Shown piece after piece: positions 1,105-7,130 of a stretch of DNA of 13,480 nt; the first letter of the stretch is position 1, and every line of letters begins with the position of its first letter. Below the pieces are notes generated by a model. The model was given only the letters and a program-made list of their open reading frames with translations. It did not search any database and had not been told where the DNA came from. The DNA is from a bacterium (GTDB lineage: Bacteria > DYJV01 > JALVYZ01). The stretch lies in NCBI GenBank assembly GCA_027037705.1, contig JALVYZ010000142.1, positions 1 to 13,480 of the forward strand. Reading direction: 5' to 3'. The translations under genes were made by a program, and so were the position numbers.

Positions 1105-2715
1105 ATGAATTTAAATGCATTAAAGTATAAGTTTATTCGTTGGTTGTTTAATTTTCCAAAATTTAGAGCTCCTCAAAGAGGGTTTATAATAATCCAGATA
1201 GATGGATTATCATTTGAGACCTTTGAAAAAGCATTAAATAAAAATTATCTCCCTAAAATAAAGAAAATATTAAAAAGAAATTATAATTATAAAAAATTTT
1301 TATCAGGGATACCCTCAAATACACCTTATTTTCAAAAAGTTCTTTTTTATGGTGATTTAGAAAAATATCCAGGATTTAGATGGTATGACAAAAAATTAAA
1401 AAAATATTTTTCTTTTAAATTGCCTGAAACTGCAGAAATTGAAGAAAAAAAAATTAAAGATAAAAATTTTGAAGGAATTTTAAAAAATGGGGCATCTTAT
1501 TTTAATCTCTTCTCAGGAGATGCTTCAAGAGCATATTTAACATTAAGTCAAATTTTTAAAACAGACTTAACAACTAATATTTCAGCATTTAAGTTATTTA
1601 CAATAATTTTATTAAATATCCCAGCATTAATAAAAGTTGTATTTTGGAGCATTGTTGAATTATTTAATGAAATTTTTGATTTTCTTTTCTATAAATTAAG
1701 CCACTTACCACAGAGAGATTTTAAATTTTATCCTTTTTTAAGAATTTTTAATAATGTAGTTATTAATGAATATATAACCCAAGGAGCAATGGTAGAAATT
1801 ATATGTGGAACTCCAAAGATATATGTTACTTATAATGCTTATGATGAAGCAGCGCATCAAAGAGGTGTAATATCAAAAAGTTCATTAAATATTTTAAGAC
1901 TGATTGATAAGTCTGTTTGGAGGATTTTTAAATTAAGCCAAAATAAAAAAAATTTCAGGAAATATGATTTTTTTATTCTTTCAGACCATGGTCAAATGCC
2001 TTCTATTCCTTTTAGCTTTATATTTAGAAAAAATTTTGAAGATATAATTCATAGTTATAAAGAAAAAATTTCTACTGTAGGGGAAGAAAAAGAAACTCAT
2101 ATTTTATCTGTTATAGAAAAGATAAAGAATCTTTCAAGAAAAAAAAAGATTCCTCGATTTATCTATAATTTATTTCCAGATTTAGAGAATAAAAAATACC
2201 AGGATATTGAAATTCATAAAGATTCTAAAATAAAAATTATTAATTTTGGTACATTTTCGCAAATTTATTTTACAGATTATCAAGAAAGATTGGCATTTGA
2301 AGATATAAATGAAAAATTTCCATTAATTTTATTGGAAATTTTGAGCCATAAGAGTGTAAAATTTCTTTCTGTAGTTGATAAAGATAATAATGTAATTTTT
2401 TTGGGTAAAAATGGTTTTTTAAAAGTTAAAAATGATAAAATTATAGATTTTTCAGGTGATTTGCCATTTGAAAAAAAATTTATAAAAGAATTGAATGATT
2501 TAACTTTATGCGAAAAAGCAGGAGATATCTTAATTTTTGGTAATATAATCAATGGTAAAATTGTAAATTTTGAGGGGCAATTAACAGCTCATGGCACGTT
2601 TTATGATGATGAGATGTCCTGTTTTATTCTTTATCCAAAATATAGAGAAAAATTCATAAAAAAAGTTAATAAAACTTATGACTTACATATTTTTTTCAAA
2701 AATACCTATGTTTGA
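1105..2715 (+). CDS. Type I phosphodiesterase / alkaline phosphatase superfamily protein
   Basis: This 536-aa protein has the metal-site pattern of the nucleotide pyrophosphatase/phosphodiesterase branch of the alkaline phosphatase superfamily. D33 lies in IIIQIDGLS, the likely nucleophile T73 in GIPSNTPYFQ, D247 and H251 in YDEAAHQRG, D294 and H295 in LSDHGQ, and the late H496 in LTAHGTF. A hydrophobic insert at about 160-200 (FTIILLNIPALIKVVF and following) matches the layout I recall from bacterial members of this family. It may sit on the membrane surface or act as a reentrant segment. There is no signal peptide. The substrate is unknown; these enzymes cleave phosphodiesters or phosphomonoesters. 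ATG 1105 has no clear Shine-Dalgarno because the repeat array abuts it, so the start is less certain than the fold. It precedes gatA by 50 bp on the same strand, where gatC often lies. Confidence 0.85.
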   Translation: MNLNALKYKFIRWLFNFPKFRAPQRGFIIIQIDGLSFETFEKALNKNYLPKIKKILKRNYNYKKFLSGIPSNTPYFQKVLFYGDLEKYPGFRWYDKKLKKYFSFKLPETAEIEEKKIKDKNFEGILKNGASYFNLFSGDASRAYLTLSQIFKTDLTTNISAFKLFTIILLNIPALIKVVFWSIVELFNEIFDFLFYKLSHLPQRDFKFYPFLRIFNNVVINEYITQGAMVEIICGTPKIYVTYNAYDEAAHQRGVISKSSLNILRLIDKSVWRIFKLSQNKKNFRKYDFFILSDHGQMPSIPFSFIFRKNFEDIIHSYKEKISTVGEEKETHILSVIEKIKNLSRKKKIPRFIYNLFPDLENKKYQDIEIHKDSKIKIINFGTFSQIYFTDYQERLAFEDINEKFPLILLEILSHKSVKFLSVVDKDNNVIFLGKNGFLKVKNDKIIDFSGDLPFEKKFIKELNDLTLCEKAGDILIFGNIINGKIVNFEGQLTAHGTFYDDEMSCFILYPKYREKFIKKVNKTYDLHIFFKNTYV

Positions 2716-2765
2716 CATTTTATATAAAAAGTGATAGCTAATGCTAAATTTTTATGGAGGGAATT

Positions 2766-4199
2766 ATGGAAATATTAGACAGGTCAATTTTTGAATTACA
2801 TAATATGTTAAAGAATAGAGAGATTACATCTCAAGAATTAACTAATAAATTTTTAGAAAAAATAGAAAATTTGAATAAAAAGATAAATGCTTATATTACA
2901 ATTTGTGAAGATATTGCAATAGAACAGTCTAAAAAGGCAGATGAAAAAATAAAAAATGGAAATATTTCATATTTAACAGGAATTCCATTAAGTATTAAAG
3001 ATTTAATTTGTACAAAAGGGATAAGAACAACTTGTGGTTCTAAAATGTTAAATAACTACATTCCAACTTATAATGCCACAGTTTATGAAAAATTATTAGA
3101 GCAAAATATTGTTACTCTTGGTAAAGTTAATATGGATGAATTTGCAATGGGCTCATCAAATGAAACCTCATATTTTGGACCAGTTAGAAATCCTCATGAT
3201 TTAGAAAGAGTTCCTGGTGGATCAAGTGGTGGTAGTGCTGCTTCTGTAGCTGCAAATATGTGCGCTGCTTCATTGGGTTCTGACACAGGGGGTTCAATTA
3301 GACAACCAGCTTCATTTTGTGGGGTAGTGGGATTGAAACCAACTTATGGTAGAGTTTCTCGTTATGGTCTTGTTGCATTTGCTTCATCTTTAGATCAAAT
3401 AGGCCCAATAACAAAAAATGTTGAAGATTGTGCAATATTGATTCAAGCAATTAGTGGATATGATGAGAAAGATTCTACTTCAGTGAATATAGAAGTTCCA
3501 GATTATTTAAAAGATTTAAAAAAAGAATCTTTAAAAGGACTAAAAATTGGAGTGCCAAAAGAGTATTTTATTGCTGGAATTAATGAAGAAGTTGAAAAAT
3601 GCATAAAACATTTATTAAATATTTTAGAAAAAGAGGGTGCTGAAATTATTGAAATTTCTCTTCCCCATACTGAGTATGCTGTTGCAACTTATTACATTAT
3701 TGCGCCTGCTGAAGCAAGTTCAAATTTAGCTCGTTATGATGGTGTTAAATTTGGTTATAGAGCTGAAAATTATGAAGACTTACTTGACATGTATAAAAAA
3801 ACCAGAGCAGAAGGTTTTGGAGATGAAGTAAAAAGAAGGATAATGATAGGCACTTATGCGTTAAGTTCTGGATATTATGATGCATATTATTTAAAAGCAG
3901 CTAAAGTTAGAAATTTAATAAAACAAGACTTTCAGAATGCTTTCAATGTTGTTGATGTGATTATGTGCCCAGTTAGTCCAACAACTGCGTTTAAAATAGG
4001 AGAAAAAATAGATAATCCTCTTGACATGTATTTAAATGATATTTTTACAATTCCTGTAAACTTAGCAGGACTTCCAGGCTTGAGTTTACCAGCAGGAAAA
4101 GATTCAAATAATTTGCCAATAGGATTGCAAATTATAGGGAATTATTTTCAAGAGAATAAATTACTAAATATTGCATACAATGTGGAACAATGCCTGTAA
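2766..4199 (+). CDS. gatA: Aspartyl/glutamyl-tRNA(Asn/Gln) amidotransferase subunit A
   Basis: GatA is the amidase subunit of GatCAB. It releases ammonia from glutamine, which GatB uses to convert Glu-tRNA(Gln) or Asp-tRNA(Asn) to the amidated form. The Ser-cisSer-Lys triad is clear: K78 in [11 protein letters not shown]153 in [10 protein letters not shown], and S177 in [11 protein letters not shown] prefer ATG 2766 (477 aa) over the ATG at 2754 because GGAGGG at 2756-2761 is a proper ribosome binding site for 2766 and lies inside the longer reading. The C-terminus ends NVEQCL, roughly nine residues earlier than GatA proteins I remember, where a His/Lys/Pro-rich tail normally follows. The stop overlaps the start of the next small gene by 10 bp. 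No gatC is visible nearby. Confidence 0.97.
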
Positions 4200-4399
4200 A
4201 AAAATATAAAACCTTTGAAGAAGCTGAAAAAGATTTATGGGTTTTCAATCCAGATAAAAATTATTATAAGAAGTTAAGAACAATTTTGAATTTTGATATT
4301 ATGATAAATGTTAAAAAATTTCCAAGAGGAATTTATAAGTATAAAACTTTTGAAGAAGCTGAAAATCATAGATGGAAAACTCTAATAGAACATTATTAG
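4190..4399 (+). CDS. Small uncharacterised protein paired with a nucleotidyltransferase
   Basis: This 69-aa basic protein carries a KYKTFEEAE motif twice, at residues 5-13 and about 50-58. Between them are a segment with [11 protein letters not shown] and a [11 protein letters not shown] stretch. I recall small proteins of this pattern (W-x-F-x-P-D-x-x-Y-Y, then Y-P-R-G-I-x-K-x-K-T, E-E-A-x-x-H-R) beside nucleotidyltransferase genes, but I know no function. There is no signal peptide or membrane segment. Its ATG overlaps the gatA stop, its end overlaps the next start by 28 bp, and it lacks a good Shine-Dalgarno, so translation is probably coupled to gatA. A toxin-antitoxin-like role with the downstream gene is inference. 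Confidence 0.75.
4205..4230 (+). repeat. Direct repeat inside the 69-aa gene (copy 1; copy 2 at 4340-4365)
   Basis: The 26-bp stretch at 4205-4230 recurs at 4340-4365 with one mismatch (C at 4213 against T at 4348). The offset of 135 bp equals 45 codons, so both copies read the same peptide, YKTFEEAE. A second copy of the peptide motif may be normal for the family, but near identity at the DNA level suggests recent duplication or gene conversion within this gene. Recombination between copies would remove 45 codons in frame. Confidence 0.85.
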
Positions 4400-4863
4400 A
4401 TTATTTATTAAAAATTGTAAAAGAATTCAATGAAAATGAAGTTAAATATGTTTTATGTGGAGGACTTGCTGTAATTCTTTATGGGATGCCTCGTTTTACA
4501 GAAGATATTGATTTCATGATTGCAGTTGACAAAGAAAATATTGAAAAAATAATAAAAATTTTAAAAGGAATTTTTAACAACGATAAATATATTGACGAAC
4601 TAAACTGTGAAGATTTTAAAAAGTATTCTGTAATAAGATATGGTACACCTGAAGGGTTTTATATAGATTTTATTTATAAAATTGGAGAGGTTGCAGAATT
4701 TAAAGAAATTTATAAAAGTAGGGAAATAATAACAATTGAAGGTGTTGATATTTCAATAATTAACAAAAAAGATTTATATAGATTAAAAAAGAATACTGTT
4801 AGATTCATTGACAAAAATGATGCATTATTCCTAAAAAAATTATTAGAAAACAAAAAGGAGTGA
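4372..4863 (+). CDS. MNT/DUF6036-like nucleotidyltransferase
   Basis: This 163-aa protein has the minimal nucleotidyltransferase signature: G30-G31 in YVLCGGLAVILYG, then PRFTEDID with D45 and D47 as metal ligands, and a third carboxylate D99 in GFYIDFIYK. The C-terminal KNDALFLKKLL resembles the K-D-x-x-D-A end of the MNT/DUF6036 group. Known relatives include toxins that add nucleotides to tRNA 3' ends, antitoxins that AMPylate a partner toxin, and orphans; sequence alone does not separate these. The start overlaps the 69-aa gene by 28 bp. The AAGGAG for gatB (4855-4860) lies in this gene's last codons, so the module is built into the gat operon. There is no HEPN gene beside it, which argues against a standard MNT-HEPN pair. 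Confidence 0.85.
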   Translation: MENSNRTLLDYLLKIVKEFNENEVKYVLCGGLAVILYGMPRFTEDIDFMIAVDKENIEKIIKILKGIFNNDKYIDELNCEDFKKYSVIRYGTPEGFYIDFIYKIGEVAEFKEIYKSREIITIEGVDISIINKKDLYRLKKNTVRFIDKNDALFLKKLLENKKE

Positions 4864-4866
4864 AAC

Positions 4867-6300
4867 ATGGAATTTGAAGCAGTTATTGGATTAGAAGTTC
4901 ATGCCCAGTTATTAACTGAAAGTAAAATATTCTGTTCTTGTTCAAATAAATTTGGAGATAATCCAAACGAAAATACCTGTCCTGTATGTACAGGTCAACC
5001 AGGTTCATTGCCAGTTTTAAACAAAAAAGCTGTTGAATATGCTATCAAAGCTGGCCTTGCTACTAATTGTAAAATTGCCAATAAAAGTGTTTTTGCAAGA
5101 AAGCATTATTTTTATCCAGATTTACCTAAAAATTATCAGATTTCTCAATATGAATTGCCTTTATGCGAAAATGGTAAAATTAAGATTTTGGTAAATAATG
5201 AAATTAAAGAAATTGGAATTACAAGGATTCATATGGAAGAAGATGCTGGGAAGTTAAGTCATGAGGGTAGTGACCCAAACTCAAGTTATGTTGATTTTAA
5301 TAGAACGGGTACTCCATTAATTGAGATAGTTAGTGAACCAGATATTAGAACTCCAGAAGAGGCAGTGGAATATTTAAAAATTTTAAGATCAACTTTGATG
5401 TATCTCGGCATATGTGATGGAAACATGGAAGAAGGTTCATTTAGATGTGATGCTAATATTTCTGTCAGACCAAAAGGAGAGAAAAAATTAGGAACAAAAA
5501 CAGAACTAAAAAATATGAACAGTTTTAGAAATATTCAAAAAGCTTTAGAATATGAAATAAGAAGACAGATTGAAGTTATTGAAGATGGAGGGAATGTAGT
5601 TCAAGAAACAAGATTATGGAATCCAGATAAAGGAATTACCGAAACAATGAGAAGAAAAGAGGAAGCGCATGATTACAGATATTTCCCAGAACCAGATTTA
5701 ATTCCTTTAATTGTTGAAAATGAATGGATAGAGGAAATTAAAAAAACTTTACCTGAGTTGCCTTTTGAAAAAATGATGAGATTTATGAATGAATATGGTT
5801 TAACAAAAGATGAAGCTGACACATTAACAACATCAATTGAAATTGCAGATTTTTATGAAAATACAGTTAAAATTTGTAATGATGCAAAAGCAGCATGTAA
5901 CTGGATAAAAGTGGAATTACTTGGTCTTTTAAATTCAGAAGATAAGGATTTTAAAGATGTTACTTTAACACCTGAGCATATTGGAAATTTAATAAATTTA
6001 ATAAAATCAGGAAAAATTAGTGGTAAAATAGCAAAATCTATTTTTAAAGATATGTATTCAACAAATAAAATGCCTGAAGAGATTGTTAAAGAGAAAGGTC
6101 TTGAGCAGATTAGTGATGAAGGGAAATTAAAAGAAATTATTTCTGAAATTATAAAAAATAATCCAAAACAGGTTGAACAGTTTAAAGGCGGAAAAACTAA
6201 AGTTCTTGGTTTTTTTGTTGGGCAGGTTATGAAAGCAACAAAAGGGCAGGCTAACCCTCAACTTGTAAATAAATTATTACAAGAAATGCTTAATTCATGA
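4867..6300 (+). CDS. gatB: Aspartyl/glutamyl-tRNA(Asn/Gln) amidotransferase subunit B
   Basis: GatB binds the misacylated tRNA, activates its carboxylate with ATP and accepts ammonia from GatA. It is full length at 477 aa. It opens with EAVIGLEVHAQL. The zinc cysteines are C23 and C25 (CSCSNKF) and C38 and C41 (TCPVCTGQPG), and ARKHYFYPDLPKNYQISQYE follows. The C-terminal tail domain ends with KQVEQFKGGKTKVLGFFVGQ, typical of the YqeY-like GatB tail that contacts the tRNA elbow. AAGGAG at 4855-4860 gives a six-base spacing to ATG 4867. The gene is separated from gatA by a 0.7-kb foreign-looking module, and its stop overlaps the next start (ATGA). Confidence 0.98.
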   Translation: MEFEAVIGLEVHAQLLTESKIFCSCSNKFGDNPNENTCPVCTGQPGSLPVLNKKAVEYAIKAGLATNCKIANKSVFARKHYFYPDLPKNYQISQYELPLCENGKIKILVNNEIKEIGITRIHMEEDAGKLSHEGSDPNSSYVDFNRTGTPLIEIVSEPDIRTPEEAVEYLKILRSTLMYLGICDGNMEEGSFRCDANISVRPKGEKKLGTKTELKNMNSFRNIQKALEYEIRRQIEVIEDGGNVVQETRLWNPDKGITETMRRKEEAHDYRYFPEPDLIPLIVENEWIEEIKKTLPELPFEKMMRFMNEYGLTKDEADTLTTSIEIADFYENTVKICNDAKAACNWIKVELLGLLNSEDKDFKDVTLTPEHIGNLINLIKSGKISGKIAKSIFKDMYSTNKMPEEIVKEKGLEQISDEGKLKEIISEIIKNNPKQVEQFKGGKTKVLGFFVGQVMKATKGQANPQLVNKLLQEMLNS

Positions 6301-7130
6301 AAAAAATAAAGATAATTATATTTTTGTTCGCATTTTTCTTTTTACCATACTTATATGCTACAGATTATAATTATATAGATTTTTATCCTAATATTGATCC
6401 TGTCAAGGACTTCGTAGATTCATTTGTCATGAAAATGAATAAATTAAATATAAATATTATAAATCTCAGGGATAAGAAAGTTTTTAATAATTCTAATGAA
6501 ATATTAAAAGCATTACAATCTGGAACTATTCAAATTGCTTTGGTTCCAGCTTATGCTATCAATAACAATTTAAACTATCCATTGTCTGAGATATTTTTTT
6601 TAAAAATGAAAACAATATCTGATGAATTAATGATATCATTTAGAGAAAAATTAATGGAATATGGAATTTTTTTATTAGATATTTACCCATTAGGAGCCTA
6701 TTCAATATATTCAAAAAATAAAATAAAAAAAGATAATACAGTTTTAGGAGTATTTATAAAAACTAAAAATTTTTTTAAAAAATTTTCAAATATTGTAATA
6801 ATTGATGATAGTGCGAATGTTAAAAATTTAATAAAAAAAGATATAATAAATGCAATATTTACACCTGATTTTTTCTTATATACTAATAATTTAATTGATG
6901 CAGATTTAAGTTATAAATACAAATTAAAGAATATTAACAGCTATTTAATGATAGTTGCGAATAGTTCATTCTGGAAGAATTTAGATTATAATCAAAAATC
7001 TATCATTTGGTCATTTATAATAAATTATGAAAAAAAATATATAAAAAATTTTTTAAAGTTTAAAATATATATAGATAATTTAATTTCTCAAAAATTACTT
7101 ATTCTCAATTTTAGAGATATTATACACTAA
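6297..7130 (+). CDS. Exported DctP-like (TRAP-type) solute-binding protein, divergent
   Basis: This 277-aa protein has a clear signal peptide (MKKIKIIIFLFAFFFLPYLYA, residues 1-21), so it should be periplasmic. Two stretches recall TRAP transporter binding proteins. ILKALQSGTIQIALVP at about 69-84 matches the 'L..G..D.A.VP' region. Residues 213-245 (INSYLMIVANSSFWKNLDYNQ onward) match the C-terminal part where the family reads 'V.N..FW..L....'. It is shorter than the usual 320-340 aa, and no permease genes are nearby. Its ATG shares bases with the gatB stop (ATGA), implying coupled translation, and its 3' end overlaps convergent rex by 36 bp. An orphan ligand-sensing or decayed binding protein is possible. 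I am confident it is exported, less so about the ligand-binding family. Confidence 0.65.
   Translation: MKKIKIIIFLFAFFFLPYLYATDYNYIDFYPNIDPVKDFVDSFVMKMNKLNINIINLRDKKVFNNSNEILKALQSGTIQIALVPAYAINNNLNYPLSEIFFLKMKTISDELMISFREKLMEYGIFLLDIYPLGAYSIYSKNKIKKDNTVLGVFIKTKNFFKKFSNIVIIDDSANVKNLIKKDIINAIFTPDFFLYTNNLIDADLSYKYKLKNINSYLMIVANSSFWKNLDYNQKSIIWSFIINYEKKYIKNFLKFKIYIDNLISQKLLILNFRDIIH

Follow-up and report, generated by a model that had tools for sequence, protein, structure and literature searches.

A nucleotidyltransferase gene pair between gatA and gatB as a candidate MenAT1-like toxin–antitoxin module with a new family of small partner proteins

The nucleotidyltransferase (NTase) toxin MenT1 of M. 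tuberculosis extends tRNA acceptor stems. In MenAT1 (Rv0078B-Rv0078A), its gene lies downstream of a small gene for a 68-aa antitoxin (PMC10435456, PMC11375011), and its residues D41, K137, and D152 are essential for toxicity while a T39A variant is still toxic (PMC10435456). The gene pair described here has the same arrangement of a small gene upstream of an NTase gene. It also resembles MenAT1 in its NTase fold (as judged from the model of a homologue), in its catalytic set T/D/K/D, and in a small protein that is without a DNA-binding domain and whose relatives, like some relatives of MenA1, can occur with no NTase gene beside them. In contrast to MenAT1, the 69-aa small family has no detectable MenA1 homology and carries its own YKTFEEAE/PxGxYxFKTFEEA motifs, and the NTase is shorter and about 20% identical, with both toxicity and tRNA modification being predictions for the present pair. 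AbiE (AbiEi-AbiEii, type IV; PMC3985639) is related through its NTase, as ours passes the Pfam AbiEii cut-off and shows the hGG...RxTxDxD and C-terminal K/R/D motifs. However, the partner here has no AbiEi match in Pfam or PADLOC, and assignment to type IV was rejected because a protein of only 69 aa is without the AbiEi winged helix-turn-helix and C-terminal domain. The HEPN/MNT systems (type VII; PMC2701414, PMC7641770) are likewise mobile two-gene NTase modules, and Makarova et al. 2009 reported that an MNT-HEPN module had inserted into the lysine operon of a Thermus thermophilus strain and is missing from that of another (PMC2701414). The present pair differs in having no HEPN partner and an NTase from another subfamily; type VII was rejected after no HEPN match was found in 26 small-family members and R-x4-6-H spacing proved not to be conserved across their alignment (A4). 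Finally, the TM1012/DUF6036 NTases share the fold (Z 10.8 to TM1012 for the homologue model) and the DUF6036 domain match, but have no function assigned to them. The NTase is thus of the known MenT/AbiEii kind, and the small partner family and the pair are undescribed. Our main reading, to which we give a probability of roughly 0.6, is that the pair is a MenAT1-like toxin–antitoxin module with a new antitoxin family that landed by chance in a gat operon.

The window, by which we mean the whole 13,480-nt stretch of DNA that was analysed, carries the operon on its + strand; correct charging of tRNA depends on gatA and gatB. The gatA gene (aspartyl/glutamyl-tRNA amidotransferase subunit A; 2754-4199; TIGR00132, 680 bits, E 1.2e-204) probably starts at the ATG at 2766, 12 nt past the listed 2754 and preceded by an SD-like GGAGG (2756-2760). 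It is followed by the 69-aa ORF with two YKTFEEAE-type repeats (4190-4399), a proposed antitoxin supported by the common start and motifs of the 26-member alignment A4, by the 163-aa MenT1/AbiEii-like NTase (4372-4863), a proposed toxin, and by gatB (4867-6300; NF004014, 743 bits, E 1.4e-223). The original prediction of two genes between gatA and gatB is borne out, as both are real and on the + strand. Its description of overlaps at every junction holds for the first two (10 nt between gatA and the 69-aa ORF, 28 nt between the 69-aa ORF and the NTase) and not for the last, where 3 nt lie between the NTase stop and the gatB start. The gatB ribosome binding site is indeed inside the NTase gene, since the Shine-Dalgarno AAGGAG (4855-4860, + strand, read from sequence) falls within the last NTase codons, 6 nt upstream of the gatB ATG. 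A survey of gatA–gatB spacing had been suggested as a check. Where gatA and gatB are adjacent in 23 other genomes, 11-166 nt (median 56) separate their match ends, and the same measure gives 670 nt in the window. A search of 2600-6400 turned up neither an excess of sigma-70 promoter-like sites nor a + strand terminator. In G001, the sole relative at the order level, gatA and gatB are not adjacent and both module genes are absent; there, gatA is followed by what we take to be a Sua5-like gene, and gatB stands between genes that we take to be tlyA-like and hisF-like. GatA of the window ends nearly where that of this relative does, with little or no loss, and truncation of GatA by the insertion was ruled out on this ground. 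That the arrangement is an assembly chimera or a non-coding overlap is hardly credible. The assembly is a draft of 496 contigs and the junction recurs in no relative, but the frames are intact at both gat junctions, the starts are family-conserved, the gatB Shine-Dalgarno is well spaced, and GatA (72%) and GatB (70%) both match the same order-level relative. Elsewhere in the window, 3 kb from the module, an ORF for a PIN-domain (VapC-like) toxin (647-1018) is overlapped by a short ORF upstream of it (504-659), and the two form a possible second toxin–antitoxin pair (504-1018).

The NTase ORF is not a chance reading frame, because it passes the Pfam AbiEii (PF08843) gathering cut-off with 34.0 bits against 22.5 (E 3.7e-8); the homologue at L104 scores 28.0 bits. 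Weaker Pfam matches to DUF6036 (1.3e-5), DUF2204, and aminoglycoside adenylyltransferase each exceed their own cut-offs. The original prediction labelled the gene MNT/DUF6036-like; AbiEii/MenT1-like describes the enzyme more closely. With a profile of 20 homologues, MenT1 was the one clear solved relative (E 1.9e-5, positions 10-147 of 158), and in the profile alignment to 8an4 its T39/D41/K137/D152 align with T43/D45/K139/D150 of the window. Across the 20 NTase homologues (alignment A5), T43, K139, and D150 are invariant and D45 is nearly so; the catalytic-site residues of the window NTase are T43, D45, D47, K139, and D150. Because the MenT1 catalytic-site residues are aligned and conserved in this way, the enzyme looks intact. 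The fold was assessed on a homologue rather than on the window NTase, namely the model of a fusion protein at L078, which gave Z 10.8 to MenT1 (8an5_A; 152 residues, rmsd 4.4), with TM1012 sharing the top score at ~10.8. Pfam score, MenT1-equivalent catalytic residues, and this homologue fold all place the protein among AbiEii/MenT-like NTases. LnuA (Z 10.3) and ANT(2'')-Ia (Z 9.1), which are antibiotic adenylyltransferases, follow closely. Since LnuA scores so near MenT1 and TM1012, fold alone, here a modelled one, does not separate toxins from antibiotic-modifying enzymes. The only other NTase relative detected in the genome of the window belongs to a different clade (L172:1703-2351, contig C22); it is followed by an unrelated 63-aa ORF and so forms a different NTase and small protein pair.

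Searches of Pfam, NCBIfam, PADLOC, PHROGs, and PDB gave no match for the 69-aa protein. The ORF is nevertheless not a chance one, because homologues are present in at least seven phylum-level groups, most with a common start. A scan of 84,980 species genomes returned 29 small-gene loci, distributed over KSB1/Calditrichota, Cloacimonadota, Desulfobacterota/deltaproteobacteria, Poribacteria, Ignavibacteria, Spirochaetia, and Aminicenantes. The double-motif family to which it belongs has two common motifs, of which the second is PxGxFKFKTIEEA. In the window gene, a 39-nt direct repeat (4202-4240 and 4337-4375, + strand; 85% identical, spacing 135) encodes both motif copies. The form of the second copy, PxGxYxFKTFEEA, is the only motif in single-motif relatives. 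These constitute a second class of small proteins with the motif PxGxYRFKTFEEADEW only, encoded upstream of an NTase and usually overlapping it. For the small protein, homology to MenA1, to AbiEi, or to any other antitoxin could not be detected; a PDB search with profile A4 retrieved no chain of MenA1 at E values up to 5, and short proteins can be missed in such a search. Modelled alone, the protein has a pLDDT of 81 and a pTM of 0.40, and Foldseek returned no significant PDB match for this model.

The 69-aa family is a fixed partner of this NTase clade. When 82 genomes of one phylum were searched with both profiles, taking 190 bits or more to define clade NTases, all 16 such NTases had the small gene adjacent, within about 45 bp. 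The next NTases, outside the clade, score 113 bits or less; six score 82-113 bits, and five of these, on checking, have a single-motif small gene upstream, the sixth (L157) being partly masked. The module is sporadic (18 of the 82 genomes), mostly one per genome, and scattered at unrelated sites. The distances within the NTase and small families correlate (Mantel r=0.84, 0/5000 permutations), and both genes show a dN/dS of about 0.2-0.3 in unsaturated Cloacimonadota pair comparisons, indicating purifying selection. In one genome the two are fused into a single 252-aa protein (L078). Of the fusion alignments, A9 was used, and A6-A8, A10, and A11 were left out for misplaced rows or lost conserved columns. 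The AlphaFold model reaches a pTM of 0.78. Given an NTase of 160 residues and a linker that is disordered, such a value would otherwise be hard to attain, and we infer that the position of the small domain against the NTase is predicted with some confidence rather than at random. The fusion also carries weight for a different account of the pair, in which the NTase works with an accessory or specificity subunit in accessory RNA, nucleotide, or antibiotic modification or in phage defence, and is no toxin. A fused toxin–antitoxin would stay permanently inhibited, and an enzyme with an accessory domain fits the fusion as well; purifying selection on both genes, the fold shared with LnuA and ANT(2''), whose scores are nearly the same, and a small protein with no detectable antitoxin homology count in the same direction. 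Against it, scattered and mostly single copies at unrelated sites, frequent decay of the NTase, and the MenT1 catalytic set suit a toxin pair better, and the phage and viral collections gave no phage match and no copy confirmed in viral contigs. We regard this account as rather unlikely.

Losses of one gene bear on the roles of the two. At about a dozen loci, the small ORF is open and the NTase is missing, shortened, or stopped. No NTase is left beside the small gene at L089/L130, L096, L137, and L183; the NTase is truncated at L090, L094, L098, L100, L142, and L185 and stopped at L097 and L174, with the small gene kept in each case. One and the same site between lptA and lptB is occupied by the module in L131, where the NTase is present, and in L130, where it is absent. 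Additionally, at L185:1501-1872 and L189:1498-1925 deletions took the catalytic half of the NTase and left the small gene joined to, or beside, the NTase tail. No NTase of the double-motif clade without a small gene was found at the loci examined. This asymmetry calls for caution, because most of the loci were found by way of the small gene and the NTase, at about double the length, is the larger target; in the 82-genome set, which is free of that bias, the asymmetry comes down to 4 cases versus 0. A small protein that is tolerated when free fits an antitoxin better than a toxin, and the repeated breakage or loss of the NTase while the small gene persists suggests that the NTase is the toxin and the small protein the antitoxin. 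The roles could conceivably be reversed as in HEPN/MNT, which is predicted to be the commonest such pair and in which the NTase is the antitoxin (PMC7641770); here the NTase would nucleotidylate a toxic small protein. This we consider improbable, because a free toxin would hardly allow the intact small protein to persist without any NTase at L089, L096, L137, and L183. The absence of both a HEPN match and a conserved R-x4-6-H motif from the small protein speaks against it too, as does MenT1 being the nearest solved structure to the NTase.

The position of the pair invites a functional link to the gat genes. The NTase could modify tRNA-Gln or tRNA-Asn, or the pair could tune GatCAB output, and the position would then have been selected. 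According to the literature, MenT-type enzymes have tRNA acceptor ends as their substrate and GatCAB has charged tRNA, and the tight overlaps, together with the gatB Shine-Dalgarno inside the NTase, would couple expression. The tRNA 3'-end hint of the original prediction stands insofar as the nearest solved relative of the NTase has such an activity, but this does not link the NTase to GatCAB. No other copy of the module lies beside gat genes among the 29 loci from 84,980 species genomes, the 20 loci of the 82-genome survey, or the NTase matches in 97 other genomes, and the window is the sole instance; the original prediction had named such a result as grounds for refuting the link. Confirmed neighbours elsewhere include pyrG and kdsA (L076), ftsK and lolA (L097), lptA and lptB (L089), glyS (L080), the gene for a microcompartment shell protein (L135), and that for pyruvate dehydrogenase E1 (L132), with no common theme. 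Tight spacing is ordinary at module loci. A preference for co-directional operons is not established (upstream neighbours 34/38 vs background pairs 82/109, p=0.07; within 100 bp p=0.26). We therefore find a gat-linked function very improbable, and its most exotic extension, recruitment of this copy to control tRNA amidation, has no support. As all other copies were found at unrelated loci and none near gat, the position at gat is most plausibly incidental, and the simpler proposal of the original prediction, a mobile module that landed in the operon, fits. The gat site tolerates other inserts too, as in another genome a presumed thioester-reductase-like gene stands between gatA and gatB (G058; L020:2592-3746), and modules can stack at one site, as between pyrG and kdsA the module lies in tandem with what we take to be an MNT/HEPN-like pair (L076:4490-6872). 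A search for insertion ends or target duplications at the window module gave only the internal coding repeat and repeats of chance length, and one distant single-motif relative resides on an Azospira plasmid.

The NTase tree, built on 164 columns and thus to be read with care at its deep branches, gives an indication of the history of the module. The tree gathers every NTase-first member in a single clade (95/86), has the window as the first branch of the partnered group (97/88), and places L104 with the small-first group of single-motif type (98/92); L051, labelled 'other' in the tree, is small-first. The window order as a reversed copy was ruled out, as the window, L104, and the single-motif small-first group all lie outside the NTase-first clade. 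Because the NTase-first members form a single clade with the window outside it, the small-first order is probably ancestral and the window not rearranged, and the window copy may keep the deep state of the double-motif type. More broadly, a new antitoxin family with one or two copies of the PxGxYxFKTFEEA motif may keep MenT1-like tRNA NTases in check throughout a widespread class of toxin–antitoxin pairs, whose ancestral order would be small-first and whose NTase-first members would go back to a single switch. To this wider picture we give an even chance.

Under the toxin–antitoxin reading, the module would be a self-contained, sporadically distributed two-gene pair. The free MenT1-like NTase would probably add nucleotides to RNA, with tRNA acceptor ends as the likeliest target, and slow translation, and the 69-aa protein would be its dedicated antitoxin, probably binding the NTase directly. 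The module lacks an obvious promoter or terminator; its co-transcription and translational coupling with gatA and gatB would follow simply from where it landed, and it would play no specific part in tRNA amidation. Even a striking place in an essential operon can thus be incidental. MenT/AbiEii-superfamily NTase toxins are common and not all have a recognised antitoxin; one uncharacterised NTase clade, present in at least seven phylum-level groups, now has a defined partner family with its own motifs and a fusion, and their partner relation is open to a standard co-expression assay.
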